Source of the DNA: Owenia fusiformis
Taxonomy: Eukaryota > Annelida > Polychaeta > Sabellida > Oweniidae
DNA length: 64,000 nt
Direction of reading: 5' to 3'
Assembly (NCBI GenBank): GCA_903813345.2
Contig: CAIIXF020000010.1
Coordinates: 25,940,425 to 26,004,424 of the forward strand
Every line of letters begins with the position of its first letter. The stretch's first letter is position 1. The notes beneath the pieces were generated by a model that did not search any database, was not told where the DNA came from, and saw nothing but the letters and a program-made list of their open reading frames with translations. The position numbers and the translations under genes are program-made. This document shows positions 14,015-64,000 of the stretch, in pieces.

Positions 14015-15046
14015 TCATGCTACAGTCTCCTCATTGTGGCTGGTAATGTTGGAGTGAGGTGCCTGGGCAACTTGGTTTTTCTTCCAACACCACAATCCTG
14101 ATAACTCTCGCCGGAAACTTTTTCCAGAAACGCAATAAAGGAGAAAATTAATGGCATTGTTAATATACTGCAACAGGTTACAAACAGCCCAGTGGAGTTC
14201 GGATTTAGCCGTTTGTAGCTCATCATCCTTATCCGAGTACCACTTTGTGTAGAAATTCAGGTAGATAACGATAGGGGCCGTGCAGATAATGAAAACAAAA
14301 TTCACTGTGAGTAACATTGCCGTCAACGTGGTCATTTTACATTCCTTCGCCGTTTTCCAATTTTTGTTCCAGAAAACAACCTTAATGATGATGAGGACGT
14401 TACTGACGAACATAATGATGAACGGGATGAAGGAAGCTATCCACGTGTCCAGCCATGACCATGTGTGCAATATGAAATCCGCATATTTATCATTGGCAAC
14501 AATACATCTAACTACCTTTTCACCTTCATTGTTTATTCTAGTGTCCCCGAATGTCCAGAAGAAGTGAAGGTTGACGACGAAGAAAACAGAAAATAGAACG
14601 CAAATAACAATAGGTGTGGTGAGGTGATTAGAACAAGCTCTGTCTGGAACATAGATGGTTATTAATCTTTCAGAAGTAACCACAACTAAGATCCACGCTG
14701 ACAGATGCACCGTATAGTAAACTATAAATATATGTACCTTGCACCCACCAAGTGTTATATCTCGTATGTCTACGTCAGAAATGTAAATGATCCAATATCG
14801 CAACAGGCCAGTGTAAAGCGCCATTGTGTCCACCACAGCTAGAACACTAAGGTAAACACTGGATGTGCTCTTTCGCATGTTCTTCCTTGTAAGTATGATA
14901 AGAGCTAAAGTGTTTCCTATTGTACCGAGAATTATGATCAGTGGTGCGCAGTATACCCATAGTCCTTCAGCTATTGTTGCCTCTATATAGACAACGGCTT
15001 CTGTAGCGTTAGTGTCGTTGGCACGTGTACTGCCGTTAGTGATCAT
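14015..15046 (-). CDS. Rhodopsin-class GPCR, peptide-receptor-like, complete
   Basis: A complete single-exon seven-transmembrane receptor of 343 residues, acting at the plasma membrane. The N-terminus has sequons at Asn4, Asn10 and Asn13. TM1 is about 31-54 (GTIGN, Asn45), TM2 about 62-88 (Asp73), TM3 about 102-132 (Cys102; SER125-127 in the DRY position), TM4 about 143-166, TM5 about 197-224 (Pro208), TM6 about 240-267 (CTAP255-258 in place of CWxP) and TM7 about 283-306 (NFLLY300-304 in place of NPxxY). The predicted helix 8 is SGKSFRREL. Cys181 in ECL2 can pair with Cys102. NFLLY-type TM7 is common in FMRFamide-like and related invertebrate peptide receptors. The start at 15046-15044 matches the paralogue at 477. 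Sea urchins have large arrays of such single-exon receptors, some expressed in sensory appendages; membership here is inferred. The C-terminus differs from the paralogue at 21160. Confidence 0.95.
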   Translation of the reverse strand: MITNGSTRANDTNATEAVVYIEATIAEGLWVYCAPLIIILGTIGNTLALIILTRKNMRKSTSSVYLSVLAVVDTMALYTGLLRYWIIYISDVDIRDITLGGCKVHIFIVYYTVHLSAWILVVVTSERLITIYVPDRACSNHLTTPIVICVLFSVFFVVNLHFFWTFGDTRINNEGEKVVRCIVANDKYADFILHTWSWLDTWIASFIPFIIMFVSNVLIIIKVVFWNKNWKTAKECKMTTLTAMLLTVNFVFIICTAPIVIYLNFYTKWYSDKDDELQTAKSELHWAVCNLLQYINNAINFLLYCVSGKSFRRELSGLWCWKKNQVAQAPHSNITSHNEETVA

Positions 15047-16983
15047 ACTTGCACATTCGGTGGTAGCCTTTTTAATTCAATAAAAGATAACTTAGACGTT
15101 AATATTTACTTTAGTTGCAGACAATGGTATTACAGTTTCCCCACTTAAGTATTCTCTCGTTGACACAGTGGAATAAAACCAACATTCTTCGTTCAAGGAT
15201 GTCATTTGCATTTAATCAGTTTTCAAATGTCTTATCTTTGTATGTGTCTGTTCTGCAACTGTTGTTTTTCTGTGACAATATTATGACTTGTTTAAAAACA
15301 TTTAGATTAATTACAAGCAATACAAAATGGAAAAAGTCCAATCAATTATATGCATTGTACGCCTTACAACTAAATTAAATGTATCTAGCCTCAAACCGTA
15401 CTGGTAAGTGGTAGCATTAGACCGGCCGGTTGATGTGTTGCTGCTTTTGCACCCCCTTATAAGTGTTGACAATTTATCGAATTTTTCTTCGTTTCTGGTG
15501 TTTTAGCCAAATAAATTACTTTTAGGAACATCCCTTTATGTATACCCGTGATACCCTCTCCCTTATTTTCCCAAATTGATGTGATTGTTCGCATTTTCGA
15601 GTAAATTGTCAGTTATTTTTGTGTATGGACAGAGTTGTAATGTTAAACACTTGCATCCATATCAATCCTCGAGCAGCTTTGACAAATCCGGTGATTCTGA
15701 GAACCTCATCTTCATGTATTCCGCATATAGTGTCAGTGTCGCATCAACAAACACACGGATCGTTTTTATGTTTGTATGGTTACACTATTTCCCTACATAA
15801 TGAATTATTATTGGGGAATTCATTTCGTGTAAAACACATTTTATGTTTAATCATCGGCTTTCAGTCAATTGAGAGTTTAAGCTTGCATATAAAGTCGAAA
15901 CACCAACCTCTACAAATGACCAATCGCCCATACAAATGCATCGCTAAAAATATTTTCCCTTCACGTTTAGGTTGAAAAACATTGCAAGCTTAAACTCCAA
16001 AACAAACTCTGATTTGCATGACCTCTAAGAACATATGTCCACGTCCAAAATGATTCAAGATAAGGGATGAAATGGCTTGTATTTTTTTATCTTTCGATCA
16101 GTTGGATTGGAATGCTACCACTGAGGAAAGGCAACAGATAAATGTTCAGTTGTGATTAATCACGCAATTGCTCATCATCCAAACAATGAAATTAAAATTT
16201 GAAGAATAATGAAACCAAAACAATGCAATATCCGACTTCTTCTCAGTAAAGTTCGAAAGACTAAATTTGTTTGGTAATGGATCTCACATTGTAAAACGAA
16301 CCACCGAGCAAATCCGGGCAAAGTCTCGTTGGTGTACAGCTAGCCTAAGTAATATTATGACTTGATTCTCTTCATCACTAAGATAAAGAATGATGTGAGG
16401 AATGTGATTATGCCAATCAAAACATCACATTGATGTTTAGTATCCAGATAATATATGCATTAAACGAAAAGGGTACGCGGAAGAGGTAATAATGAAGTCA
16501 ACTATGAACTATGGGGTCTCCCCCTCCTTGCCAATGATTTATTTTACCTAACATGTTTGAAAAAGTGAACAAAAAGTAAGAAGCTCGGGGCTATAATATA
16601 CATTGTACATAACTTTATTTATTATTTACATTAATCGATCAAATATTGCAACATATTTTTACAAATGTAATTTAACAAAAATAAATTAATTGTAATATCC
16701 GACTGTTGTCTTCGTTTTTTAATATGTCCTTATGAATAAATAATCGCTGAATGCTGGTCTGTGAAGACTTTTATGCTGACATTTGTAAGAAGCAACTAGT
16801 CTAATTGTGATATTTTGAAGATCTAATATAGTTTTGGCAAATAGATGTACAATAATTAAAGCCAATTTTTTATTTTGTAATATCCATAACCCAAATTTGC
16901 ACAGGAAAAGCATGATACATTTCACTAACCATCAAAAGATTATTGCTAAGAACCGTTGATATTTGGTACTGTAGCAGTTGTCA
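15047..16983. other. Intergenic between receptors 2 and 3
   Basis: A decayed repeat unit homologous to the N-terminal repeat of the third receptor lies just upstream of the ATG (about 15044-15072, minus strand). The plus-strand frames at 15115-15378, 15585-15800 and 15619-15975 overlap one another and show no domain. Nothing else recognised. Confidence 0.4.
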
Positions 16984-21159: not shown

Positions 21160-22395
21160 TTATGGCACAGTCTCAACATCGGTGTGACTGTTAATGTTAG
21201 AGTGCGGTGCAACCTGGGTTCTCTTTCTCCAACACGTTGCAGCTGCCTTCCACAACCCTGGCAGCTCTCGGCGGAATTTTGGTCCTGATACGCAATAAAG
21301 GAGAAAATTAATGGCATTGTTAATATACTGCAACAGGTTACAAACAGCCCAGTGGAGTTCGGATTTAGCCGTTTGTAGCTCATCGTCATCATCCGGGTAC
21401 CACTCTGTGTAGAAATTCAGGTAGATAACGATAGGGGCCGTGCAGATAATGAAAACAAAATTCACTGTGAGTAACATTGCCGTCATGGTTGTCATCTTTG
21501 ATTCGTTCGCCGAGTTCGTCCGCCGAATAGTTCTCAAGATAACAACCTTGATAATGATGAGAACATTGCTGACGAACATTATAATGAATGGAATAAAGGA
21601 TGCAATGCATGTGTCGAGCCAGGACCACGTGTACACAAAGAAATCTGAATATTTGTCATCTGCAACTACACATAAGCCTTCATCGCTTAATTCAGAATCA
21701 CCAAATGTCCAGAAGAAGTGAAGGTTGATAACGAAGAAGACGGCAAAGAGAACGCACAGCGTGACAAGTGTGGTGAAGTGGGTACAATATACCTGGGCTT
21801 TGTGGGGGATATAGACGGCTATTAGTCTCTCAAATGTGACCACAACTAAGATCCACGCCGACAGATGCACCATGTAGTAAACTATAAATATATGCACCTT
21901 GCACCCGGCAAGTGTTATATCCCGTATATCTAAATGTACGTCAGAAATGTAAATGATCCAATATCGCAACAGGCCAGTGTAAAGCACCATTGTGTCCACC
22001 ACAGCTAGGACACTAAGGTAAACACTAGATGTGCTCTTTCGCATGTTCTTCCTTGTAAGTATGATAAGAGCTAAAGTGTTTCCTATTGTACCGAGAATGA
22101 TGATAAATGGTGGACAATATGTCCATAGTCCTTCGGCTATTGCTATATAATCAGGTTCGGAATCGGAATCATATATGTCGTCGGCATTCCCGTTTGCGAT
22201 CATACTTGTACTTTCTGTATTAACCATGCTTGTAAATTCGCTAGTTGCCATGTTTGTTATTTCGGTAGTTGCCATGGTTGTTATTTCGGTAGTTGTCATG
22301 TTTGTAATTTCAGTAGTTGTCATGTTTGTAATTTCAGTAGTTGCCATGTTTGTAATTTCGGTAGTTGTAATGTTTGTCCTTTCAGTAGTGGCCAT
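21160..22395 (-). CDS. Rhodopsin-class GPCR with threonine-rich N-terminal repeats
   Basis: Third receptor paralogue, 411 residues from the ATG at 22395-22393. Residues 1-64 are eight 8-residue repeats of the form M-(A/T)-T-T-E-I-T-N, encoded by a 24-bp minisatellite. They give a Thr-rich, probably O-glycosylated stalk with three NxT sequons. An acidic linker (DSDSEPD) follows, then the same seven-TM core as the other two: GTIGN in TM1, LAVVD in TM2, FER in the DRY position, CTAP in TM6, NFLLY in TM7. ECL1 has two extra residues (DVHLDIRD). The frame stays open upstream to 22521, which would add a hydrophobic segment, but an acceptor-like tattggttcag directly precedes the ATG, so I prefer this start. 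TM6-TM7 are almost identical in DNA to the gene at 14015-15046. Ligand unknown; FMRFamide/TRH-like peptide receptors are the nearest class. Confidence 0.92.
   Translation of the reverse strand: MATTERTNITTTEITNMATTEITNMTTTEITNMTTTEITTMATTEITNMATSEFTSMVNTESTSMIANGNADDIYDSDSEPDYIAIAEGLWTYCPPFIIILGTIGNTLALIILTRKNMRKSTSSVYLSVLAVVDTMVLYTGLLRYWIIYISDVHLDIRDITLAGCKVHIFIVYYMVHLSAWILVVVTFERLIAVYIPHKAQVYCTHFTTLVTLCVLFAVFFVINLHFFWTFGDSELSDEGLCVVADDKYSDFFVYTWSWLDTCIASFIPFIIMFVSNVLIIIKVVILRTIRRTNSANESKMTTMTAMLLTVNFVFIICTAPIVIYLNFYTEWYPDDDDELQTAKSELHWAVCNLLQYINNAINFLLYCVSGPKFRRELPGLWKAAATCWRKRTQVAPHSNINSHTDVETVP
22203..22395 (-). repeat. Coding 24-bp minisatellite
   Basis: Eight tandem 24-base units encode the N-terminal repeats of the third receptor. 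Middle units are nearly identical and outer units diverged, as expected from slippage or unequal exchange. The two paralogues keep only one decayed unit, located in their 5' untranslated region. Confidence 0.85.
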
Positions 22396-22862
22396 TCTGA
22401 ACCAATAAAAAGTGATCAAGATGTGAATGATTACTAAGTTACTTACAAATAATTCAATTATCGCACTTTTATCACTATGTGAGTTGTCGCGCTGAAGTGA
22501 ATAAATGCCATCTGTTTTCAAATATTATTACTTGTTTCTCTGTGCTAATATTATCGCTTATATTTAAAGATATTTCCACCAATAAAAAAGCAATTTGAAC
22601 CGCGTAAATAGAACTGTAAATCTAGAAAATGTGTCGCGGATAAATTTTGCAGAATTTTATTCCTTTTGTTTTCTACAAGATGGATAGACGACATCTTTGA
22701 ATGAAAAAATCATTTGTATATTTTGCTTGTGCCAATCGAGGGGCCGAATATGCTGTCTATTTCGCTGACAGCATTTTTCACACAATTATTCCCCATGACA
22801 GTTGAAGAAAACTTGCCAAAGGCCACAATATAGCTGGGTATTTTTCCCTAGCACATAATGTA
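22396..22862. other. 5' flank of third receptor
   Basis: Contains the probable splice acceptor just upstream of the start. I see no clear first exon or TATA box. Confidence 0.4.
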
Positions 22863-23635: not shown

Positions 23636-23958
23636 TATGCTTGGTTCTAATTGTGTGTGTATATTAGCAAATCTTTTGAGCAGAAAATCTTCGTGAACCT
23701 GACTTTGATACAACTGATTTGCGGACTCTTGGATGTTACATAAAATTCTAAATTCCATATATCTTTGGGTACTTTTTGACCATGACTGATATACCTTTCA
23801 AAGTGTTCCAATAAATACGAGTGTTGACTCAAAATGTTTTTAATATCAGGAATGAAACCATCATATTTCCTTGAACATGACATTCTCACAATATAACTGC
23901 TAATTCTTGATATAAATATATCCCGCTGCATGACTGGGAGGTTTGAGATAAACATTAA

Positions 23959-24460
23959 GGCCCCCGTGTAAAGTTTGAAAATATGTTTTTATCATTCATT
24001 AACTATTTTTAATGACTTTAAAAGTTATTTTAGAGATTTTTGAAAACATTTTTAAAGGGAAAAAGTTGTCAGATTTTAAGTTTTCAAATATTAAAATTTC
24101 CCAACATTTTCAAATAAAAGTTGAAATTTTCTTATCATCAAATATCCCAACATACAGTACAAAATACATTATTTTTTACACCAAAAAAGTGGTGTATATG
24201 ATTGAATAAAGGACATATTATTTCAATAATAAAATGTCATACCGAATGTGTCACTTAACTGTTTAGCATATTAAAAATTAAAAAAAATGTTGCACCCTAA
24301 GTGACATCATGGTGCAAAGATTTTTTGAAAAAGATAATCAAATTACTCAATCTAGTGGTCCATGATATGCTAAAATTTTAAAATAATTCAATGTTGATTG
24401 TCTAAATTGGTTGAAAAGAAGAATATATCATATTCATACGTCACACTCACAATTTTGTGA
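23959..24460. mobile_element. Truncated copy of TTAA-flanked repeat family
   Basis: The left end (TTAA then GGCCCCCGTGTAAAG) and several hundred following bases match the element at 38189-38845. The right terminus is missing or too decayed to place. Confidence 0.6.
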
Positions 24461-38184: not shown

Positions 38185-38188
38185 TTAA

Positions 38189-38845
38189 AGGACCCATGTA
38201 AAGTTTGATAGTATGTTTTTATCATATCATTCACTCACTATTTTTCATGACTTTAAAAGTTATTTTAAAGACATTGGAAAAAGCCTTTTGGGAAAAAGTT
38301 GTCAGTTTTTTATTTCTCTTTCCCGCTATTTTTCAAATAAAGTTTAAGATTTGTTACTCATAAAATATTCAACTAACCAGTGCAAAATACATTGTTTCTA
38401 ATATAATTGCGAATATTGAACAAAAGACATACTATTTCAATATTGAAATGTCATAACTAAAGTGCCACACCAGTGTTTCCAGCATATTAAAAAATTGCGC
38501 CATAAATCACCTCGTCGTGATGTCATTTAGGGTGCAATATTGTTTTGAAGAGTCAATATTTTCTAGATATGTTAAACTTTCAAAATAAACCAATGTTGAT
38601 TGTCTAACTAGGTTGAAAAGAAGAATTGTGTTTTAAATATCTCTGTACCATTGGTTTTTATGAGAACTAAAATTTTGAAATGCATTTTTCTCTAAACCAC
38701 TTTAATGCATAAATGAGTTCATTTCTCGCTAATTTATCAATCGATATTCAACATTTTTCGACAAAACACACGAGAGGATGAATTTTTATCACATTGAGTA
38801 AGACTGCAATAAAAGCCAAAGTGGTTTAAACTGTATATGGGGCCT
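38189..38845. mobile_element. TTAA-flanked element, 657 bp
   Basis: Left AGGACCCATGTAAAGTTT and right (inward) AGGCCCCATATACAGTTT are inverted ends, each next to TTAA (38185-38188 and 38846-38849), the piggyBac-type target. No transposase. The same family occurs inverted at 61525-62357 and truncated at 23959-24460. Confidence 0.75.
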
Positions 38846-39523
38846 TTAAGATTTTTGGGCGAGTAGCTGCTTGAAACTTTGACTTAACTTTGTTGACTTA
38901 ATCCGTCAATATATGCTTAGTCTTGAAATTTGAATTTGAAGAGATGCAGAATAGGAGAAGTGTTGCATTTTTGTCACCCTGTATTTAAAAAACAAACTGT
39001 TTTCCCTTCAAAGTGTAATTAGGATATGAACTGAGAAAGTGGTATTGTTCCAAGATTCTAACTTACAATATTGAGTAGATCCATATCCTTGTTTGTTATT
39101 CTCTTTAAAAAAACAAAGGGCAAAGTTTAATGAAATAACAATAACCCTTAATTTCAGGATGCATTATAATTCCTCTATTTGTTATTTTTGCTGGCAAATG
39201 TTTTCTCAACTAAATCAACATCAAATAGCTTTTTAGACCTAGCTCATCAATCGTCAAGTCTTACAAATTCTGGGTGCTTGATAGATAGTTGATGTCAAAG
39301 AAACAGACGGTTTATCCAGAGAATATAAAGACTGTAATCGTGTGATGATGTATTCCTGGTTAATGATACCTTGTAGGCAATCGCTTTGTCTTTTGGGGTT
39401 TGCTAATTCACGTTATTACGTCATTAATCTTGTTCATTAAATTGATATACGAGTAAACGAAAACTAAATTATTGATGTATTCTGTTGATCAATTCATGTC
39501 AAATCACATATCACATACGATTT
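38846..39523. other. No recognisable feature
   Basis: AT-rich intergenic sequence with no supported exon, RNA gene or bounded repeat. Confidence 0.4.
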
Positions 39524-43826: not shown

Positions 43827-45235
43827 GGCCTACAGACAACTCATCCCCTAGACAACTCATCCCTGGACAACTCATCCCCTAGAAAACGAATCCCCTGAAC
43901 ATCTCATCCCCTGGACATCTCATCCCCTAGACAACTCATCCCCTGGACAACTCATCCCTTAGACAACTCATCCCCTAGACAACTCATCCTTTATCACATG
44001 AAGCCAAATTAGTTTTTTGGAAAATAAATATTTATTAAATACATCTTGAATCATTCTAAATATTATCTTTCACTTTATTGACACAAATAAAATGATCAAA
44101 CAGTCAAACGTGCCATTGAAACTTTCATTTCTTGTCCCTACATTACATGACTTAATATTTCATAAGTTTTCTCTCTGCATAATTGTGTAACATGAACTTC
44201 AGTAACTTCATCTGTGACTGCTGTGAAAAAATAATCTTTGGATTAAAGAATATTTGAACATTGAACAACAAACACACTATGACATCAAAGTAGCTTGTGA
44301 CATCAAAGCAGCTTCTTCAATCAATATTATTGCTTAACATAATATCGAAATTGTATATCAAAAATAAAATTAAAGGTAAATATTTAAAAAACAAATTACA
44401 TATTAATTGGTTGACTATCTCCTTGACAATACCATAGTAGTACCATGGTATATCACAGTTTTTAAACAACTTTTCAGATTTTCCCTCAAGAAAGTCTTTG
44501 TTCACTTGTACTCAGAACACATCAGAATCCTAGCTTTAATACCTCACTATTGATATGTAAATGGAAAGAGTTAGAAGTGCAGATCTTAACCAGTTTTGAA
44601 AATATGTTTACGTAACAAAAGTGAGGTATTAAATCGAGGATCGTGTTGTCTTCTGAACTATTTGTTCGCATGTACACATGTACATTTTCTTTGACATATG
44701 GAATTCTGCCTACTTCTGGAGAAATAAGGAAAGACAAAAATCGTACCTTTGAGGCTCTGACATTTTGTTACAGAAACAATCTGTTTACAACAAAATCGAG
44801 TGGAGTACCAGTGTTCATGTAATATATGATTTTGAAACTTCAAACTGATCATGATAACCAATACATTTAAAAATCATTTGAATAATGTATGAATTAATAA
44901 TATTACATTAAATTACTCAAACATGCCAAAGGATGAGTTGTCCAGGGGATGAGTTGTCTAGGGGATGAGTTGTCCAGGAGATGAGTTGTTTAGGGGATGA
45001 GTTGTCTAGGGGATGAGTTGTCCAGGGGATGAGTTGTCTAGGGGATGAGTTGTCCAGGGATGAGTTGTCTAGGGGATGAGTTGTCCAGGGATGAGTTGTC
45101 TAGGGGATGAGTTGTCCAGGGGATGAGTTGTCCAGGAGATGAGTTGTTTAGGGGATGAGTTGTCCAGGGATGGGTTGTCTAGGGGATGAGTTGTCCAGGG
45201 GATGAGTTGTCTAGGGGATTAGTTGTCCGGTTACC
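43827..45235. mobile_element. TU-like foldback transposon with repeat-array termini
   Basis: The left end is about ten tandem units of ACAACTCATCCCCTAG (43834-43990). The right end is about nineteen units of the reverse complement (44932-45228). An 8-base direct repeat CTTTCATA flanks the element (43819-43826 and 45236-45243). Many right-hand units alternate CTAGGGG and CCAGGGG forms, giving a 32-base higher-order unit, with some 15-base units. The central 0.93 kb is AT-rich and encodes no transposase I recognise. Sea urchin TU elements, as I recall, have long inverted ends with outer arrays of 15-bp direct repeats and 8-bp target duplications, so the architecture matches. Non-autonomous. Confidence 0.8.
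43991..44931. other. Interior of the TU-like element
   Basis: AT-rich with short open frames only. The segment around 44605-44830 shares blocks with 50640-50880, some direct and some inverted. TTAATACCTCACT (about 44538) and its complement (about 44618) form a small inverted repeat. Confidence 0.5.
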
Positions 45236-53405: not shown

Positions 53406-54981
53406 TAGGGACCACAGAGGTTTTTTAAAAAATGCATCAAAAAATCTGAAAAAATCCATATTTATGTAAAATTGGCTGAGAAAATCAATGAAACCATTCC
53501 CAAAGTTGTAGCTTGAACCATTAAAAAGTTATAGGGGTCTAAAGATGGAAAATCGAAAAAAAAGTTTTGTCAAAAAGTGTGTGTCACATGACATGGGATG
53601 TCATATTCTGAGTCACTGATGGGTGTCATATTTTTTAATTTTCTCAAAGAATACAAAAAAGGCATTATTAATCTGAAAACCAAATGTAGATAGCATTATT
53701 GGTTCAATTTTTATAACAAAAACAAGAAAAGTGTGTTTTTATCATAAAAAAAGTATTTGTTTGAAGTTTTCATTTCAAGTGTATCAGGGTGAGGAAGACA
53801 AATATCTTTTAAACTACGCAGCAAAAAATCTGAAAAATCTACATATATGTGTACAATTGGCTAAGAAAGGCAATGAAATCATTTTCAAATTGATAGGTTG
53901 AATGATTAAAAAGTTATAGGGGTCTAAAGATGAAAGAAAACTAAAAAAATGTCAAAAAGTATATGTTATAATAGTCATATGACACAGTATGTCATATATG
54001 ATGTCACTGATATTTGTCCAACTTTTTTACATTGAAGAAGACTAAAAAGCTATATATATTCTGAAAACAACAAGCAGATAACATGATTGGTTCAGTTTTT
54101 ATGACTAAAACAAAAAAATAAGGTATATTTTGGCTATACATAATAAATATTTTAAAATTCTGTTTAGTCAAGTATATTGATCAATTCATTCAAAATTATA
54201 TTTTACAGCTACTAGGACATGTAGGATGGTGTGAGGAATATTTTTATCTTGATGCAAAACTCAGGCTTTGCCTCTTTATTTACATATAAGTTAAGCAGCA
54301 TGAATAAATAAATCATGAAACATAAAGGCTATTTATTTCGACATTTATGATTTAGGTATTGAGGTATCACTTATCTTGTGCCTCTCTAATATTAACAAGA
54401 TACCTTTAGATCTTTTTGATGGGCAGCAAGAGCAATGAGACTACTACTAAGTATTATTTAGCTCTCAAAATTTGCCTCCCAAATAATACCTTCAATTATA
54501 GAGATCAACTTGTGCCTCTTTATTAATAATCAATAATCTTAATAATCACCATGTGCTGTTCAAGACAAGTAGGAATGCTTGTAGAAATGAGTAAGTGCAT
54601 CTTAAGCTTGAGCATGATCAATAAGAAGTCTAATTTAGATGTGCCTCTTTATGTTTATTCTGTATTTTCAAAAAGTTTAAGTCTAGTAAATGGCTCAAAA
54701 TATTGCTGATACAAAAATTAAATTCTCAAATATTATTAACCTTTTGATTAAATGTTGCCTTTTTGATGAGTAGCAAGAGCAAGAGCAATGTGATTATTTC
54801 TGCCTCTTTTAATATCTTGAATAAATACAAATGTAAAGGCCAATTTGTGCCTTTAAATAGTTATCAATCTCAATTATAATTGTGTGTCACTCCAATCAAT
54901 TAGAAATAGATGTGCAGCTGGTCAAGCAGAAGCATAATTATAATATGTGCCTCTTAAAAAAATCAGATTATGCCTCTTTAA

Positions 54982-55385
54982 GGTACAGCTGGAAAGTAAC
55001 ATTTTGGTAAAAAATTGCTATACCTGCACATGTTATTTTCTGGTACAAAATAAAGTATGAAGGCATGTGTCAATTTCCTTGCTTTTTTCAGGAAAGTATC
55101 ATTACATTGTCTTCTTTTAGAATATCTGGTAGGGGTTCAATGGGAACTCCAGGAAATTCTGATATTTCACACTTTCTATTTTTCCAAATTTTCTTTCAAA
55201 GTTTCCAGACAACACAGAAGCTTCCATTGACCTGTTTCCAGATATTCTAAAAGTAAACAGTGTAATGATACTTTCCTGAAAAAAGCAAGGAAATACACAC
55301 ATGACTTCATACTTAATTTTGTACCAGAAAATAACATGTGCAGGTATAGCAATTTTTTACCAAAATGTTACTTTCCAGCTGAACC
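54982..55385. mobile_element. TTAA-flanked long hairpin element
   Basis: Nearly the entire 404-bp element is two complementary arms of about 190 bases: GGT(A/T)CAGCTGGAAAGTAAC at each end and close pairing through gtatcattaca. TTAA lies on both sides (54978-54981 and 55386-55389). The overlapping opposite-strand frames inside (55065-55250 and 55117-55302) encode similar peptides only because of this symmetry. Confidence 0.85.
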
Positions 55386-55805: not shown

Positions 55806-56546
55806 TTTTTTTAAATCAACGGTGCACACCGGGATCACTTGATTTTTAAATTTATTTTTATAAATTTCAAAAGAAAAGTGACTTTTCTTGCGATTGAGCT
55901 TTTGACATGGAGTTGACGGGGAGTAAAACAATGTGCAATAGTTCAGTCAAAAATATGCTCCACTTCAAACTCAATTTTCGAAAAATTATAAGCGTTTATT
56001 TGGGCAAAATTGAACAAAAGTGAAATATTTCACATGTTATTACTTCATTTCGATGTATTGAGAGTAATTATCTGTCCCCTTATTATTCAAAAAACGGTCA
56101 TCAAAACTTGGGTGAATTGCCAATGTCAACAAAAATTTTCGAAAATGGCGGCGAAAATGGTTTCACCTCTCTCATATTTTGCTTCATAACAATCAGCACA
56201 AGACAGGTTACACTACATATTAAATACCCAATGGTAAAACTTTGATTAATTATTAATTTGAGACCGATTTCATGGAATTGGGTGCAATAGTTTATTGTAA
56301 AATAAATTGTAAAGTTTCATAATTTAACATGTGAACAGATACGAGCTGAAAATAAGCCTCAACCTCTGTGGTCCCTACTGTGTAACCTGTATATCTGTAT
56401 TAATAGAGTCTTTTTGTATCGCATCTGCCTCAATTTTAAAGTTTAATTGGAATCTTTAATATGATTTCACTGTTTTTGTGGACTGGTACCAGGGCTGTCA
56501 ACTTGGGACCACCTAATATGAGTGACTTCAAAATGTTGGACACCTA

Positions 56547-57152
56547 CAGTGCTGATATATAATAATTAAGGGTGCGTTTTCAAACTAAACAGAGTGCTCC
56601 TATCAAAATGAATTTGCCTACATACCCCTGAGACTCTTATCTGATAGATAGAATGCACAAATAAAACAAAAGTTTTGCTATTATAGGTAAAAGTTCTCTT
56701 GAAATTTCGAAGTGATTTTACCTGTTAATTCTGTCCATGTCACACCATTTTTGCGGAAGTTACACTGAAACGCAAACTCCATGAAACGAAACGAAATTAC
56801 TAGAAAAAATGGCACACATTGTGCGCATGTGCAGCAAAGTTTAGACCAATCAGATTATTTGATTATTTTGCGCATATGAATTAGTTGCTTCTGAGCACTT
56901 ACAAGCTTACCACAATAAACAAACCTGGCAGAGACTACCCTTAGCCTACTTCATTTTGGCGAAATTTCAGCTCAAACTCGTGACAAATGCATTATGCATA
57001 CGCTGGTGTGAAGCCTTGGAGACACTCATTTTGGTAAATATGATTTATGGGGTATACTTTTCTGCAGTTTGTGGGAGTTTGGGACATTAAATGTTAAAAT
57101 TCAAGAAAATATGCCAATTAAACGACTGATCAATTAATATATACCAGCACTG
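56547..57152 (+). mobile_element. 606-bp mariner-type MITE, left copy
   Basis: Begins CAGTGCTGATATATAATAAT and ends in CAGCACTG with TA on both sides. The CAGTG terminus and TA target fit Tc1/mariner. No transposase. It is the mirror of 57479-58084 and essentially identical in the stretches I compared. Confidence 0.85.
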
Positions 57153-57478
57153 TAAGTCCAAATCTGAACACTTTTGTCCAAATTTTGAACACCTTTAGCC
57201 AACTTTTAAACACCTTTGGCCAAAGTTTGAGCACCTTTGCAAAACTTTGAACACCTCAAATTTTTCGCGCTCGCTACGCTCGCGATGTCGTCAACGGGGG
57301 GGGGGGGGGGGGGGGGGGGAGGGAGGGGGGGGGGGGGGGGGGGGGAGGTACGAAAAATTTCCAATGAACATGCGTGACACATACGGGATTCGCGTGACAA
57401 ATCCGAACACATTGCGTTCGGTTTTTTCCGGCGTTCGTATTTTTACCGTGTCGTAAACATATTTCGAAAAAATTTCTA
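57153..57478. repeat. Spacer with 21-bp repeats and interrupted G-tract
   Basis: About five units of a 21-base word (tttgaacacctttggccaaa) lie at 57165-57265, then a GC-rich cgcgctcgctacgctcgcga (57267-57286), then a G-run of about 50 bases broken by two A residues (57296-57346). The G-run can form quadruplexes and makes the assembly here uncertain. Confidence 0.8.
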
Positions 57479-58084
57479 CAGTGCTGGTATATATTAATTG
57501 ATCAGTCGTTTAATTGGCATATTTTCTTGAATTTTAACATTTAATGTCCCAAACTCCCACAAACTGCAGAAAAGTATACCCCATAAATCATATTTACCAA
57601 AATGAGTGTCTCCAAGGCTTCACACCAGCGTATGCATAATGCATTTGTCACGAGTTTGAGCTGAAATTTCGCCAAAATGAAGTAGGCTAAGGGTAGTCTC
57701 TGCCAGGTTTGTTTATTGTGGTAAGCTTGTAAGTGCTCAGAAGCAACTAATTCATATGCGCAAAATAATCAAATAATCTGATTGGTCTAAACTTTGCTGC
57801 ACATGCGCACAATGTGTGCCATTTTTTCTAGTAATTTCGTTTCGTTTCATGGAGTTTGCGTTTCAGTGTAACTTCCGCAAAAATGGTGTGACATGGACAG
57901 AATTAACAGGTAAAATCACTTCGAAATTTCAAGAGAACTTTTACCTATAATAGCAAAACTTTTGTTTTATTTGTGCATTCTATCTATCAGATAAGAGTCT
58001 CAGGGGTATGTAGGCAAATTCATTTTGATAGGAGCACTCTGTTTAGTTTGAAAACGCACCCTTAATTATTATATATCAGCACTG
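57479..58084 (-). mobile_element. 606-bp mariner-type MITE, right inverted copy
   Basis: Same length and sequence as 56547-57152 but inverted, and also flanked by TA. The pair forms a 1.54-kb palindrome with a 326-base centre. Confidence 0.85.
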
Positions 58085-58549
58085 TAAGAATCTAGCCTCC
58101 TTTATTTGCACAAACTCTTAGTCTTTATCCAATAGACTGAATATCTTGAGAATGCAGTCTAATGATCATCATAATCATCATCATCCCTCATTTTAGTTTT
58201 CCCTCATGTGGGAAAATTATCAATTTTAGGAAGCTTCACAATCACTTCCCAAAAATAAACGTTAGACTACAGTTTTTTAGGCCTTTAAATGCTATGAAAA
58301 GTAACACAGCATATTGTCAAATGGAAATAAAACTAGGAAACATAACAAATATGCAAATTAATTTACTCAATCGGCCATTTTGAATAGCAATTACAGTACA
58401 ATGTATGTAGCCCATGATGTAAACAAATATTTTTCAATCCCAAATTTTAATATATATGGGACATACGTAGTCTGAATATTTTCATTCCAAATTTCAAAAA
58501 GAATTCAGTAGAGGATATAGTCTACACCTCTGGGGGCAAGCCAGACTGG
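58085..58549. other. No recognisable feature
   Basis: The plus-strand frame at 58162-58383 has no recognisable features. Otherwise AT-rich. Confidence 0.4.
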
Positions 58550-58744: not shown

Positions 58745-59342
58745 TATTCTGCAATTTATGTATAAGTCATGCCTGTTTTTTACTTGACAGAATATGTCAC
58801 ACAAATATGCATTTTTTCTGATTATTGTCACAGAGAAGTATTTACATAATACGTTTCAGTATATTATTTAAACATTAAAAATGATACAAATCATATGTAA
58901 ATAGATTATCGTCTTGCAAAAATATTTCAGAATTTTCACGTAAATTGTGTATATGTCACGCATTTTTCCATGTGTGCGAGACATCATTGTGTACATTTTT
59001 TGAGGTTTAAATGAGCACAGTTTTAGGTGATGAGAACAATTTCTGGACTCGGTATGAAGTTAATCTAGTTGATTACAATTGGATGTCCTATGACCCTCTG
59101 AGGCTAAAACTAACCTTGAAAAATTAGTTTAAAACAGTTGAATTCTGCAATTGAAAATTTGGGGGACCATAAAAATTTTAAATTTTAAATAAAGCTTCCA
59201 CACCTTAAGCAATAGATCTCTAATAGATATATAAGATGGTGCTCACCTTGATGTCAGTCACATAGAGTAGCAATGGACAACCAATAGATGGCATGTTTAC
59301 ATTCACACAAAGTTTTATAAATCCCAAATAATTTATTTTCAG
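58745..59342. other. Upstream intron of the THAP-BTB gene
   Basis: No exon was found. It ends in an acceptor-like aatttattttcag at 59330-59342, which suggests the region is intronic and that a 5' untranslated exon lies further upstream. Confidence 0.4.
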
Positions 59343-59370
59343 ACTGACTGAGGCTATTAACTGATCCGAT

Positions 59371-59992
59371 ATGCCAATCAGCTATTGTGCAGTTAAAGGT
59401 TGTGCTAACAACACTAGGAAGTTAAAAAAATGGGCAAAAATATACTGTATGAAACATGTTTGCTTAAGAGAAAACAAACTTTGTGAATGTTCACCTCCAT
59501 TTCACTTTTTCACATTCCCTACAGAGAAGAAGAATCCTGAAAGAAGAGCCATATGGATAAAATTAGTAAATAGAAGGAACGTCGATGGTACACGTTGGGT
59601 ACCAGATTATTCTGCTAGAATTTGTTCACATCATTTTGTGGATGGTTATCCTTCAGCGAACAATCCAGATCCCACTCTAAAACTTGGATATAGTTCTAGC
59701 CTTGTGCAAGTGCATCAACCCAGAAAAGCACCAAAACGAAGGTTATTATTACAAAACACTGAAGCAGTTTCTTCAAAAAGAACACACATAGATTCAGTGG
59801 GATCCAAACACATGGCCTCATCTTCAAAATCATCTGAATCAGAAGTTCCCTTTAGGAAGGCATCCATTCAGCATCCAAGTATAAAGATGACCACTTTAAC
59901 ACATCGAGCTAATAGCCTATCACCAAAACCAAAGGAAACATCATCTCCTAGTTATTGTTACATAACATTAAAAGAAGATGGCAGACAAAGAG
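59371..59992 (+). CDS. THAP-domain exon of a probable THAP-BTB gene
   Basis: The exon probably starts at 59343, after an acceptor-like ttattttcag, with 28 bases of leader before the ATG. The THAP-type zinc finger, a sequence-specific DNA-binding fold, spans about residues 1-107: Cys6-x4-Cys11 at the start, FTFPTEKKNPERRAIWI (48-63) in the middle, W76VP, and Cys85-x2-His88 followed by FVDGYPS. A Cys/His-rich insert (Cys26, His29, Cys31, Cys38, Cys40) lies between the first Cys pair and the FTFP segment, making the Cys11-Cys85 gap longer than in textbook THAP domains. A basic stretch (RKAPKRR) and a Ser/Lys-rich linker follow. The frame would stop at 60021, but a donor at 59993 (AG|GTGATG) in phase 1 joins it in frame to the BTB exon at 63057. 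Nuclear transcription regulator by family; targets unknown. Confidence 0.85.
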
Positions 59993-60134
59993 GTGATGGT
60001 TTTATTTTAATAGCAATTTAAAATGTTAAATTTCGGGCTATTTTATTTCGCTAATTTCATGCTTCTTTGAAATTTTGCGGCTATTATATTTTCGCGGATT
60101 GTGACTTCTCCAAATTTGTCCTGCTTCTCTTTTT

Positions 60135-60259
60135 AAGTTGGTGATTCCTACAAGGACACCATTTCCAATTCATTTTAAGTTGGTGATTTCTGCAAGAACA
60201 CCATTTCCAATTCATTTTAAGTTGGTGATTCCTGCAAGAACACCATTTCCAATTCAGTA
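60135..60259. repeat. 42-bp tandem repeat, three units
   Basis: Three units starting aagttggtgattcctgcaag. The period is a multiple of three, so the minus strand shows a repeating open frame (60084-60281), but nothing supports a gene there. Confidence 0.85.
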
Positions 60260-61524
60260 TCAGCCTTGTTTTTCCCTTCATCTGAAGATTTTGCTTAGAG
60301 CCATTTTGTGAATGTTCATTTTAATTACGATCTTCATAAGCCAATATATAACACTCCCCCCAGTTTTCTGCAAGTTAAAATGCTCAATTCTGCAAGTGAA
60401 ATTAGTGAATTCTGCAAGAAGAAAGGGCTAATTCTGCAGAAATTCCGCGGATATTCGCGGCATTTTTTTGCGGTTATTATAAAAAAAATCAGGATTGGTT
60501 TAACAAGAACAGTATCATATATTCTAAAAACATGATTTGATAATCATATTCCTACATGTTAAACCCTGCCACAAACAAATTTGACCACTGAAAGTTCCAT
60601 TTCCATGAAAATGCTGTAATTAATGCCATAATCTACGAGTATGTCTTTATTTTTAGTCTCTGACAAGTCCGATGCTTCGAAACTTCAAACACGGAGGATC
60701 GGGCGCATAATGGGAATCACGATATATGTAAATCAGGTTTTAAGTGTAATATCTCATTGGAGTTCGAAGTTTTCGATCAATAACTTAATAATATAAATAA
60801 CTGTTATTAATTTATGTCTTTGTTTAACTTTCTGACGAGAACCGAAAGAAAAACTAATGGTTTTCGAACCAGTAAACGGGAAAATATCGTGATAGTCAGG
60901 TAGTCAGTCTCAGTCACTACATACATGCTGCCATCTAACGGCAGAAATCAAACGATGGCGTTTAGAATTTTCACTTCGCATAATTTGGGTTATTTCTGCA
61001 AGGGATTTGACTGAAAACGTGTCAAATTGTTACAGGTAAGACTGACTTTTTAAACTTTTGGAAAATATATGGATTCTGCGGAAAATTCCGCGGAAATTGA
61101 CCAAAATAGTTGATTCTGCAATTCCGCGGGCAGAGGCAAATTCCGTCCGCGCTCTGCAAACACGGAATCCTGGGGGCAGTGATATAATAATACAGTAACT
61201 CAACCTCACATTGAGTGAAATAAATTCCCGGGATTTTTGCGACTACAGTATTACTGTTTACTATGTTGTGAATTAGAACTACATGTTATTGTATTGGAAT
61301 TTTGAAGGCTATTATATTTCGCGAATTTTCCAAAACTCATATTTAAATGAGTTGCCCATAAAATAATAGGTTAATCCAGTAGCGGACAGCCGAAAGTTGC
61401 ATTCACAAATACGAGTTAAGTCATTATCCATGTTGAAGGTTTGGAGCTTTGGAGATCTCGCTCATTGTTAACTTTACAAGGGAGGTCTTGGAATGGAAAT
61501 CCAAAATGAATCAAAATTGTTTAA

Positions 61525-62357
61525 AGGCCCTGTGTAAAGTTTAAACCACTTTGGCTTATATTGTAGTCTTACCCAATGTTATCAAAGTGTGATATGTGAA
61601 ACTTTTTTTTTTAATTTCAAAAAGTGGTTTTTGATAGACTTTTTGTTCCAAAATTTGTGAATTTATTTAAAACCAACTTTTAGAGGTCACTCATATCTTC
61701 TAATTAGCCACAATTCATACCAATGCATAGCATACATCCTCCCATGTTTTTTGCCGAAAAAATTAAGAAAATCGGTTGATAAACAAGCGAGAAATGAACT
61801 TATCAGTGCATGAAAATGGTTCTGAGAAAAATGCATTTCAAAATTTTAGTTCTCATAGAAACCAATGGTACAATGATATCTAAAACATAATTTATTCTTC
61901 CTTTTAACCTGGTTAGACAATCAACATTGGTTTTTTATGAAAGTCTAACATATTTAGAAAAGATTGACATCGAAAAAAAAAATTCAATTTTTTTCAAAAA
62001 GTTTTTGTTACCTTAGTGACATCACTAATGTTTCAAAATATTTTTGATAAGCTAAAACATTGAAGTGGCCCATTAAATATGACATTTTATTATTGAAATA
62101 GTGTGTCTTTTGTTCAATCTTTGCATTGGTGTTAAAAATATAATCTTTTTTGAAATGCATTAAGAAATATTTGATGATTAAGAAATTTCAACTTTTTTTG
62201 AAAAATGGCGGGAAATTTGAATATTTGAGAAATGAAATGCTCGCAACTTTTTTTTCAAAAAAATTTTTTTGTTCAAAAATCTCTAAAATCACTTTTTAAG
62301 TCCTGACAAATAGTAAATGAATGATAAAAAAATATTTTCAAACTTTAGACGGGGACT
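61525..62357. mobile_element. TTAA-flanked element, 833 bp
   Basis: Left AGGCCCTGTGTAAAGTTT and right (inward) AGTCCCCGTCTAAAGTTT, flanked by TTAA. It is inverted relative to the copy at 38189-38845 and longer than it. No transposase seen. Confidence 0.75.
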
Positions 62358-63040
62358 TTAAACCTTTTCATTTAACAAACTTTTATATCAAATGGAATAC
62401 AAATTTGTCAATGCTAAATATATAGGGGTTGAGCTTTACTGGGGTTGAGTTTTACAGGGGTTGAGTTGACTTGGGGTTGAGATGGCCAGGAAGCATTTAA
62501 ATGGCGGTCAAATTAAAGTAATTTACAGTACAGTACTTAGAATTAATTTCATGAAGAGTGTGAAAAAACTCCAATTTGGATAAATTTTGTTACTAAATTA
62601 CTCTATGCCAACAAAATCACAAATTTTATATTTTCATTGTTCTTTTGTAAATCACAAAATTAAATCAAGCACAGAAATGATTGATTTTCACGTCACCACC
62701 AAAAGAGGCAGTCGGCCTCTGTAACAAATATTTACAACTTTCAATAGCTTAACAAGTACTTTTTAGACTGTTTTTTACTGTCAACATATATAAACATTTT
62801 ATGAGACATGAGTTCCAGCACATTTCTGCCAACCATTGCAACATATTGATCGAAGGTCTAAAAAAATGTTTTTTCAATTTGTTTCAACTTTTTTTCAAAA
62901 TCATCTACACATTCTCAGAAGTTCAGATCTGACTTGAGATCTGACCTTCCTCTGTAACAATTGTTACTTTTGTAACCATTTGCAGGTGGTGACAATTTTA
63001 ATGCCTTGTTTTTTAATGCTGTCTGTAGAATGAAATATTT
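62358..63040. other. Intron remainder, nothing recognised
   Basis: AT-rich, ending in the polypyrimidine tract before the BTB exon. Confidence 0.4.
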
Positions 63041-63056
63041 GTTTTTGTATTTCCAG

Positions 63057-63752
63057 ATACCTGTGGTATCAAGATGAAGAAGGAAAGCACAAAGCAGCCT
63101 TTAGTGTATTGCATCCAGAACACATTATTCCAAAATATGTTAGCAGACATGCAAAAGAGACATCAATTTTGTGACACAATTTTCCTGCTTCATGGAGGTG
63201 TTGAGCTGTTAGCACATAAGGTGGTAGTTTGTGCATACAGCCCTGTCGTTCATAGAATATGCAGCAATGACAAAATTCAACAGGCAAAGATTAAGATTGA
63301 TCTCCGCAAGGCAGAAGTAGAAACTGATGCAGTACGAATGGCACTAGATTTCATGTATGGGAGAAGTATTGAATTCACTGAATCAGATGCTGGCAATTTG
63401 AAAAGAATTGCAACTCTTTTGAAGATCACAGTGTTGGATGAATATGTGACTGAGGCTATGCAATCAAAGCATACAGAGGATGAGACCTACACAGGGGTAT
63501 ATATAAAAGAGGAGCCACTGGATTGGAATGAAAGCTCTGGGCAAACTTCTGTGAAAACTGAACCAGAAGATCAGTTTGAAAAACTTGTATCAGAACTGGA
63601 AAACCAACAGTACATGGATCCTGAAGTTGACATGTCAGATACTATAGAAGCTGATGACAAGATTGCTGATAACATTGAGACACCTTTAGACAAAGTTAAT
63701 GCTACTGAATACAGACAAAGTCCCAGAAAGAACATTGCTTTGAAGAGAAAAG
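63057..63752 (+). CDS. BTB/POZ-domain exon, continues beyond window
   Basis: Begins after a strong acceptor (tttttgtatttccag). With one base carried from the THAP exon the frame reads D-TCGIK and on through Met at 63074. A BTB/POZ dimerisation domain spans about residues 18-125 counted from that Met: FCDTIFLLHGG, then the typical LLAHKVVVCAYSPV segment, DAVRMALDFMYG, and LLKITVLDEYV. Two SUMO-acceptor-like motifs follow, IKEEPLD and VKTEPED, in an acidic linker, then a basic RKNIALKRK. A donor (AAAG|GTGAGA) at 63753 ends the exon in phase 1; without it the frame stops at 63805. BTB-SUMO-acidic layouts are common in BTB zinc-finger transcription regulators, so later exons may encode zinc fingers. 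If the THAP exon is not joined, the Met at 63074 would be the start. Confidence 0.85.
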
Positions 63753-64000
63753 GTGAGATATGGAATTGTTTTACTTCAGAGTTACATAAAAAGCTGTTTC
63801 AATAACACTTATCTCTTTCATTTTCTTTCATATTTCATCGCTTGCCATTCCCAGCCCTAGATGTGATGTCACAATGCAATCAAATACTAGATAGTACCTG
63901 GATGCTGGCATAATGCACAGTCATTCATGTATGGAGAATTAATGAACGGCTATGCTGCAGTCTGATTGGTGGAGGGATTCTAATATGGCACGGTCATGTT
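63753..64000. other. Start of the next intron
   Basis: Follows the GTGAGA donor; no further exon in the window. Confidence 0.5.

Follow-up and report, generated by a model that had tools for sequence, protein, structure and literature searches.

A plausible THAP-BTB splice join and a candidate internal promoter between the two exons at a locus of Owenia fusiformis

At one end of the 64,000-nt stretch of Owenia fusiformis DNA analysed in this study (the window), a THAP coding exon (59371-59992) and a BTB exon (63057-63752) lie on the plus strand, and both domains score far above chance. The upstream ORF matches the Pfam THAP family PF05485 with an E value of 2.6e-8 (34.9 bits, cut-off 23.9) over profile positions 1-60 of 87 and residues 6-91, and gives the only match to a strict THAP pattern in the window. 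It begins at ATG 59371, with an in-frame stop just before codon -2, and if unspliced it runs to a stop at 60021, encoding 216 residues from the ATG. The N-terminal zinc ligands are of the C2CH type, C6-x4-C11-x73-C85-x2-H88, and the 73 residues between C11 and C85, with an insert carrying C26, H29, C31, C38 and C40, exceed the 35-50 residues usual for this spacing in THAP domains. The class is also characterized by a C-terminal AVPTIF box, at whose place only a PT-L remnant (NPDPTLKLGY) is present here, the Pfam match having already ended at residue 91. The solved-structure relative by sequence is THAP11 (2lau, E 4.1e-5), while a model of the exon predicted from the single sequence without alignment was of too low quality for use (mean pLDDT 36.8). 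Upstream of the exon, a motif scan of the plus strand found TATAAA at 59316 followed by TCAGAC at 59339 (59316-59343), which may represent a TATA/initiator promoter or, alternatively, the 3' end of an intron lying upstream, whose acceptor AG at 59341-59342 scores 0.09 (89th percentile); such motifs are common, since about 4.3 kb contain eight TATA-type matches and ten to a loose initiator.

The BTB exon is 696 nt long, the length of 232 codons, and symmetric (phase 1-1). It matches PF00651 over nearly the whole profile (positions 3-109 of 110; E 2.3e-14; 53.9 bits, cut-off 20.5), the domain covering residues 30-137 of the exon's translation, and the sole other Pfam match, MreB-like_C (E 0.099), falls under its cut-off. 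The exon has its own ATG at 63074, with A at -3 and 17 nt past the acceptor. The acidic linker behind the domain carries two SUMO-type motifs, IKEE and VKTE, and no BACK match was found by Pfam in the 95 residues after BTB. While KLHL3 (4hxi, E 7.3e-6) is the best solved-structure relative, followed by NS1A-binding protein, gigaxonin and ZBTB7A (E 0.005-0.01), a kelch-type protein (KLHL, BTB-BACK-kelch) was rejected because the BACK match is missing. A BTB domain followed by an acidic, SUMO-motif linker without BACK is usual for BTB zinc-finger regulators such as ZBTB7A, which the exon resembles in these respects; unlike that class, however, the DNA-binding domain here would be an N-terminal THAP module rather than a C-terminal finger array, and the part inside the window contains no C2H2 finger. 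The single-sequence model without alignment was again too poor to use (mean pLDDT 39.5). The exon is followed by a donor, AAG/GTGAGA (63753-63758, plus strand), scoring 6.73 (99.9th percentile), and the coding sequence probably goes on past the window.

Between the two exons lies a candidate intron of 3064 nt (59993-63056, plus strand; GT 59993-59994, AG 63055-63056). Joining 59992 to 63057 creates a new GAT codon (Asp) and leaves 439 open codons plus 1 nt, while the other joins, five of six tried, broke the GT-AG rule, the frame or both. By an approximate weight matrix, the donor at 59993 is moderate (3.28, 98.5th percentile of 3535 GT sites). No acceptor between 60021 and 63140 other than 63055 (4.30, 99th percentile among 3223 AG sites) scores above 4. 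A sequence-only reading of this DNA had named both domains, placed a phase-1 donor at 59993 and a strong acceptor at 63056, and predicted the Asp codon, two frames kept open, at least 439 encoded residues and a BTB exon leaving in phase 1, and our analysis bears out each of these features. The donor sits 26 nt ahead of the THAP stop. When the codons of the THAP ORF were shuffled 20,000 times, 60% of the shuffles contained a donor as good somewhere, 4.5% had one within the final 36 nt, and 3.05% had one there in phase 1. Agreement of phase is by itself expected in 1 of 3 cases. Among the 18 acceptors scoring at least -0.5 between 60021 and 63060, only 63055 keeps the THAP frame open for more than 46 codons, and with the 17 alternatives all giving at most 46 open codons, no coding exon between THAP and BTB was found among them. 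None of the 24 intron ORFs of at least 42 aa has an accepted Pfam match. Judged from these sites and phases, the THAP-BTB join is plausible.

The intron also contains a CpG-rich stretch (60401-61400) that is a candidate internal promoter, with a CpG observed/expected ratio of 1.22 against 0.29 in its flanks. The ratio is 0.28 in the THAP ORF and 0.12 in the BTB exon, which share a CpG-depleted domain, and 0.70-0.88 in the three GPCR ORFs of the window. When the richest 1 kb was removed from each 5-kb block, the locus (0.29) was lower than all 541 overlapping blocks before position 59000, and its contrast (0.93) was higher than in all 541; with the CpG-rich stretch kept in, 3 of the 541 blocks were as low as the 5-kb block of the locus, which is then not the lowest. 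A first control set the flanks, without the island, beside 4-kb blocks from which nothing had been removed; none of 550 was as low, but the comparison was unfair and was set aside. The limits of the stretch had originally been picked after the profile was seen. In invertebrates, gene bodies usually carry methylation and promoters usually lack it (PMC8857917), and the pattern is therefore consistent with a gene body that is transcribed and contains an internal promoter. The second best donor on the plus strand of the window, CAG/GTAAGA at 61036 (7.15), lies at the 3' side of the stretch. It would be the donor of a candidate first exon that is non-coding and belongs to a BTB-only transcript (60904-61035, plus strand, the start position being putative), with initiator-like TCAGTC sites at 60904 and 60910 and one short upstream ORF. 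The 400 nt before this donor have a CpG ratio of 1.48, reached by 0.7% of 2544 overlapping windows, and among the nine donors scoring at least 7.14 on both strands only 61036 has a ratio above 1.2 in the preceding 400 nt, although strong donors without a CpG island are also present, for example at 59246 on the minus strand beside the THAP ORF. An AATAAA lies inside the intron at 61219, and an old dispersed repeat occupies 61521-62361, with inverted copies at 38185-38849 and 23955-24434 (72-86% identity). Base composition and site strength together suggest that the BTB exon has a promoter of its own in the CpG-rich stretch and a non-coding first exon ending at donor 61036, while the stretch could be a young repeat instead. 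The proposal of the sequence-only reading that all this is one gene is thus left half standing: the join is open and phase-matched, but the strong donor beside a CpG-rich stretch points to the kind of internal promoter which that reading had itself named as refuting it.

We give about an even chance to one locus with two promoters and with THAP-BTB and BTB-only products. Transcripts begun upstream of 59371 would carry the THAP and BTB exons spliced together (59992^63057), and in the resulting long form the N-terminal zinc module would bind DNA, the BTB domain would dimerise and recruit corepressor or ubiquitin-ligase partners, and the SUMO-type motifs after it would assist repression. A second start, placed at about 60.6-61.0 kb within the CpG-rich stretch, would produce a non-coding exon that uses donor 61036 and the same BTB acceptor, and translation from ATG 63074 would yield a BTB-only form without THAP binding that can pair with the long form; transcription, isoforms, dimerisation and repression are all predictions for this locus. 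In favour of two promoters at one locus are the Pfam scores, the phase-matched join with a donor rarely equalled in place and phase by shuffling, the single acceptor that keeps the THAP frame open, the common CpG-depleted domain, the CpG contrast, donor 61036, and the precedents of the octopus THAP genes and KCTD1 discussed below, while the moderate strength of the THAP donor, which 60% of shuffles equal somewhere, the one-in-three phase match, the post hoc CpG limits, the possible young repeat and the islandless strong donors count against it. Its main rival, a pair of neighbouring genes on one strand, is a realistic though less probable account: a short THAP gene (216 residues to 60021, or spliced elsewhere) would precede a BTB gene with a non-coding first exon to 61035 and coding from ATG 63074. 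Donor 61036 with its CpG-rich approach, the paired TCAGTC sites, the ATG with A at -3, the AATAAA at 61219 and the THAP ORF's own stop all agree with separate genes, and a genuine promoter in the CpG-rich stretch would make the THAP exon dispensable for the BTB gene. However, separate genes leave to chance the phase-matched donor just ahead of the THAP stop (3% by shuffling), offer the THAP frame extensions of at most 46 codons at other acceptors before 63055, and do not readily account for the common CpG depletion; an internal promoter alone leaves a fused long transcript possible.

A simple fusion gene transcribed from one promoter ahead of THAP, with donor 61036 and the CpG-rich stretch explained by chance or by a young repeat, seems improbable. 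While the splice sites and phases of the join all fit it and repeats do occur in the intron, nine such donors (including 61036, and three in one tandem repeat) in the 128 kb of both strands predict about 0.2 in 3 kb of one strand, and the coincidence of such a donor with one of the most CpG-rich stretches of the window is rarer still. We regard it as highly improbable that a DNA transposon of the ISL2EU or P-element type left the THAP ORF as a fragment lying by chance ahead of a BTB gene. ISL2EU transposases carry THAP, HTH and DDE domains according to a passage of PMC4482050, THAP-transposase genes are in print for sea cucumbers and Hydra, and an imperfect AT-rich inverted repeat of 18 nt (89%) surrounds the ORF (59173-59190 and 60016-60033). 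Against this origin, neither the 24 intron ORFs nor six tested upstream of THAP have an accepted Pfam match, the weak matches below cut-off being to unrelated families; among 25 of 32 inverted-repeat pairs listed, those spanning the ORF are short or imperfect, the 18-nt AT-rich pair being the nearest, and ISL2EU ends usually begin with GG as given in the same passage; and the ORF is intact and CpG-depleted.

Relatives were sought in viral, bacterial and archaeal rather than animal collections, a scope that says nothing on rarity. Strict and relaxed degenerate THAP patterns gave no match in viral contigs or in bacterial and archaeal genomes, and of two protein-guided scans of viral contigs, one gave six stretches fitting a pattern, none confirmed by tblastn, and the other gave no such stretch. 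Within the window, tblastn found no second copy of either exon and tRNA and Rfam scans were empty, while scans for bacterial-type promoters and terminators, not applicable to an animal, gave the same as shuffles.

The BTB domain of KCTD1 is of the KCTD type (BTB_2/T1), and that of the present locus belongs to PF00651. With this difference, the proposed arrangement resembles KCTD1 as outlined in a passage of PMC3212892, where isoform b joins a Crypton-derived DUF3504 domain to BTB and the short isoform is BTB-only: in both a transposon-derived domain lies upstream of a BTB gene with long and short isoforms, the isoforms here being proposed, while the upstream domain is a tyrosine recombinase in KCTD1 and THAP here. 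The THAP-BTB pairing is already in print outside vertebrates: in Mukherjee and Moroz (2023, PMC10027918), THAP and BTB/POZ are assigned to the same octopus genes, and the wording there that THAP genes mostly derive from BTB/POZ sources is taken to mean that they carry a BTB/POZ domain. The likeness lies in the pairing as described for octopus, and we doubt the view in that paper that treats BTB as a transposon part. A literature search for the phrase "THAP-BTB" and its variants gave no match, which proves little as the octopus paper describes the pairing under different terms. We further speculate, as an unlikely scenario, that an older BTB regulator acquired the THAP exon at its upstream side in an event separate from that in octopus, that the internal promoter supplies a BTB-only form pairing with and tuning the THAP-BTB factor, and that skipping of the BTB exon, which keeps the frame because the exon is symmetric (phase 1-1), gives a third, THAP-only product with in-frame continuation. 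If the long transcript exists, it would be another example of a DNA-binding domain related to transposons that is combined with a BTB partner, like KCTD1 and the octopus THAP genes, and would illustrate how new regulators arise via exon capture upstream of existing genes; if the BTB-only transcript alone exists, the locus is a warning that adjacent exons with matching phases mimic a fusion in a raw genome.

THAP is also found fused to the CtBP corepressor in C. elegans CTBP-1, which resembles the proposed long form in combining THAP with a repression-serving module, the partner there being a dehydrogenase-type corepressor and not BTB. A THAP/lactate-dehydrogenase gene has been recorded in Holothuria glaberrima (PMC13228809).

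The THAP domain encoded by the plus-strand ORF at 59371-60021 (PF05485, E 2.6e-8) and the BTB domain encoded by the exon at 63057-63752 (PF00651, E 2.3e-14) are real, as found by Pfam profile search. The ORF scan placed a stop in the THAP frame shortly 5' of the ATG at 59371, thus this ATG is the earliest possible in-frame one in unspliced DNA. The sequence-only reading had proposed a single THAP-BTB fusion gene at 59343-63752, and its coordinates hold: joining 59992 to 63057 keeps GT-AG and yields an open frame of 439 codons that includes a newly made Asp codon. The BTB exon exits in phase 1 beside a strong donor at 63753, the gene probably extending past the window end. By an approximate weight matrix, the THAP donor (3.28) falls at the 98.5th percentile when ranked with the 3535 GT sites of the window and outscores every other donor in its ORF by more than 4 bits; the BTB acceptor (4.30) is the sole acceptor above 4 from 60021 to 63140. 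When the THAP ORF was codon-shuffled 20,000 times, 60% of the shuffles held an equally good donor at some position, 4.5% held one in the final 36 nt, and 3.05% held one that was both in those 36 nt and in phase 1. Among 18 acceptors scoring at least -0.5 between 60021 and 63060, only that at 63055 opens the THAP frame beyond 46 codons. The splice-site and shuffle results moderately favour the THAP-BTB join.

A strong donor and a CpG-rich stretch within the candidate intron (59993-63056) speak for another transcript. The donor, CAG/GTAAGA at 61036 (7.15), ranks second among plus-strand donors of the window; the 400 nt 5' of it have a CpG observed/expected ratio (o/e) of 1.48, matched by 0.7% of 2544 overlapping windows, and it is the only one of nine donors scoring at least 7.14 on both strands with o/e above 1.2 there. 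The island at 60401-61400 (1 kb) has an o/e of 1.22, reached by 11 of 1260 overlapping 1-kb blocks, those overlapping the island included. As a control, the most CpG-rich 1 kb was taken out of each 5-kb block. For 59001-64000, limits picked after the profile had been viewed, the rest had an o/e of 0.29 and the contrast was 0.93; none of 541 overlapping blocks before 59000 had as low a rest (lowest 0.33) or as high a contrast (highest 0.82), and with the island left in, 3 of 541 were as low. Since invertebrates usually methylate their gene bodies but not their promoters (excerpt of PMC8857917), the CpG loss suggests germline-methylated transcribed DNA, and the island would be a natural promoter position; a similar pattern could come from a young repeat. 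Within the island, initiator-like TCAGTC occurs at 60904 and 60910 (loose initiator patterns have 10 matches in about 4.3 kb) and bounds, with the donor at 61036, a candidate non-coding exon of ~130 nt. With this exon joined to the BTB exon, the upstream ATGs at 60925 and 60955, which share a frame, meet a stop ahead of the junction. Reading from the initial ATG in the BTB exon (63074, A at -3) stays open for 226 codons, as far as the exon end.

The THAP ORF and the BTB exon share one CpG-depleted domain (o/e 0.28 and 0.12, respectively), unlike three GPCR ORFs elsewhere (0.70-0.88), thus the fusion join and an internal promoter are compatible; a single transcribed unit carrying an internal promoter would account for the shared depletion. 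By our judgement, none of the odds being computed, a locus with two promoters has an even chance, and a THAP-BTB fusion transcript as such is rather probable. KCTD1, in which insertion of a Crypton ahead of a BTB gene gave a long isoform with both domains beside a BTB-only short one (excerpt of PMC3212892), is a precedent for such a locus with long and BTB-only products. That THAP and BTB are two separate genes is a tentative possibility, to which the intronic donor and island lend support and against which the open join stands; a plain fusion gene with a single promoter, favoured by the join but not by the island, is unlikely. It is highly improbable that the THAP ORF is a transposon fragment: ISL2EU transposases include THAP (excerpt of PMC4482050), but Pfam found no transposase domain in any of 24 intron ORFs of at least 42 aa or in 6 upstream ORFs. 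A short AT-rich inverted repeat spanning the ORF (59173-59190 / 60016-60033, 89%) is taken as chance.

Motif inspection found all THAP zinc ligands (C6, C11, C85, H88) and, between the two pairs, a long Cys/His-rich insert (residues 12-41, 59404-59493) whose C26, H29, C31, C38 and C40 may perhaps form a second metal site. A sequence search of solved structures gave THAP11 for the THAP part and, for the BTB part, KLHL3 as best, with NS1A-binding protein, gigaxonin and ZBTB7A weaker; structure models of single exons were of unusable quality. Despite KLHL3, the BTB protein looks non-kelch-type, because Pfam matched no BACK domain after BTB. The 439 residues hold no HCF-1-binding pattern and five loose SUMO matches, two of which (IKEE, VKTE) fall within the acidic linker that follows BTB, and SUMO-type motifs in such a linker are a feature of many repressors. 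DNA binding by THAP modules relies on a C2CH zinc site, and BTB is a host domain of dimerisation and corepressor or cullin-3 recruitment; the predicted protein would combine these activities. Mukherjee and Moroz (2023; excerpt of PMC10027918) derived Octopus THAP genes mostly from BTB/POZ sources, which we read as THAP proteins bearing a BTB domain; given the host status of BTB, we consider its treatment there as a transposon part a misreading. In a sea cucumber preprint (PMC13228809), 51 THAP genes are reported from Holothuria glaberrima, their partners being transposase, zinc-finger, SAP30, LdhA, lectin and PCC/PPC; its text never uses the word "BTB", though certain partner domains in other species go unnamed there.

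Several further features were observed. Upstream of THAP, 54001-55000 has the lowest o/e of 64 non-overlapping 1-kb blocks (0.05), possibly a strongly methylated gene body, and a strong minus-strand donor (AAG/GTGAGC at 59246, 7.72), located 125 nt 5' of the THAP ATG, is either chance or part of an opposite-strand gene. An old dispersed repeat has three window copies (61521-62361, 38185-38849, 23955-24434; 72-86% identity), and an intronic 68-nt stretch at 62423-62490 resembles 16-nt tandem arrays (GGATGAGTTGTCCAGG) at 43834-43989 and 44931-45228. The three GPCR ORFs resemble one another, are of rhodopsin type (7tm_1) and all lie on the minus strand (1-528, 14015-15076, 21160-22524), forming a receptor cluster; the first is cut by the window edge and both complete ones are intronless. 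Together with the domains and the intron, these receptor genes are the grounds for taking the DNA to be animal. Two inverted MITE-like stretches of 610 nt (56545-57154 and 57477-58086), 100% complementary, 322 nt apart, with ends of type TACAGTGCTG...CAGCACTGTA and a run of about 50 G between them, either arose very recently, by insertion or duplication, or are an artefact of assembly.
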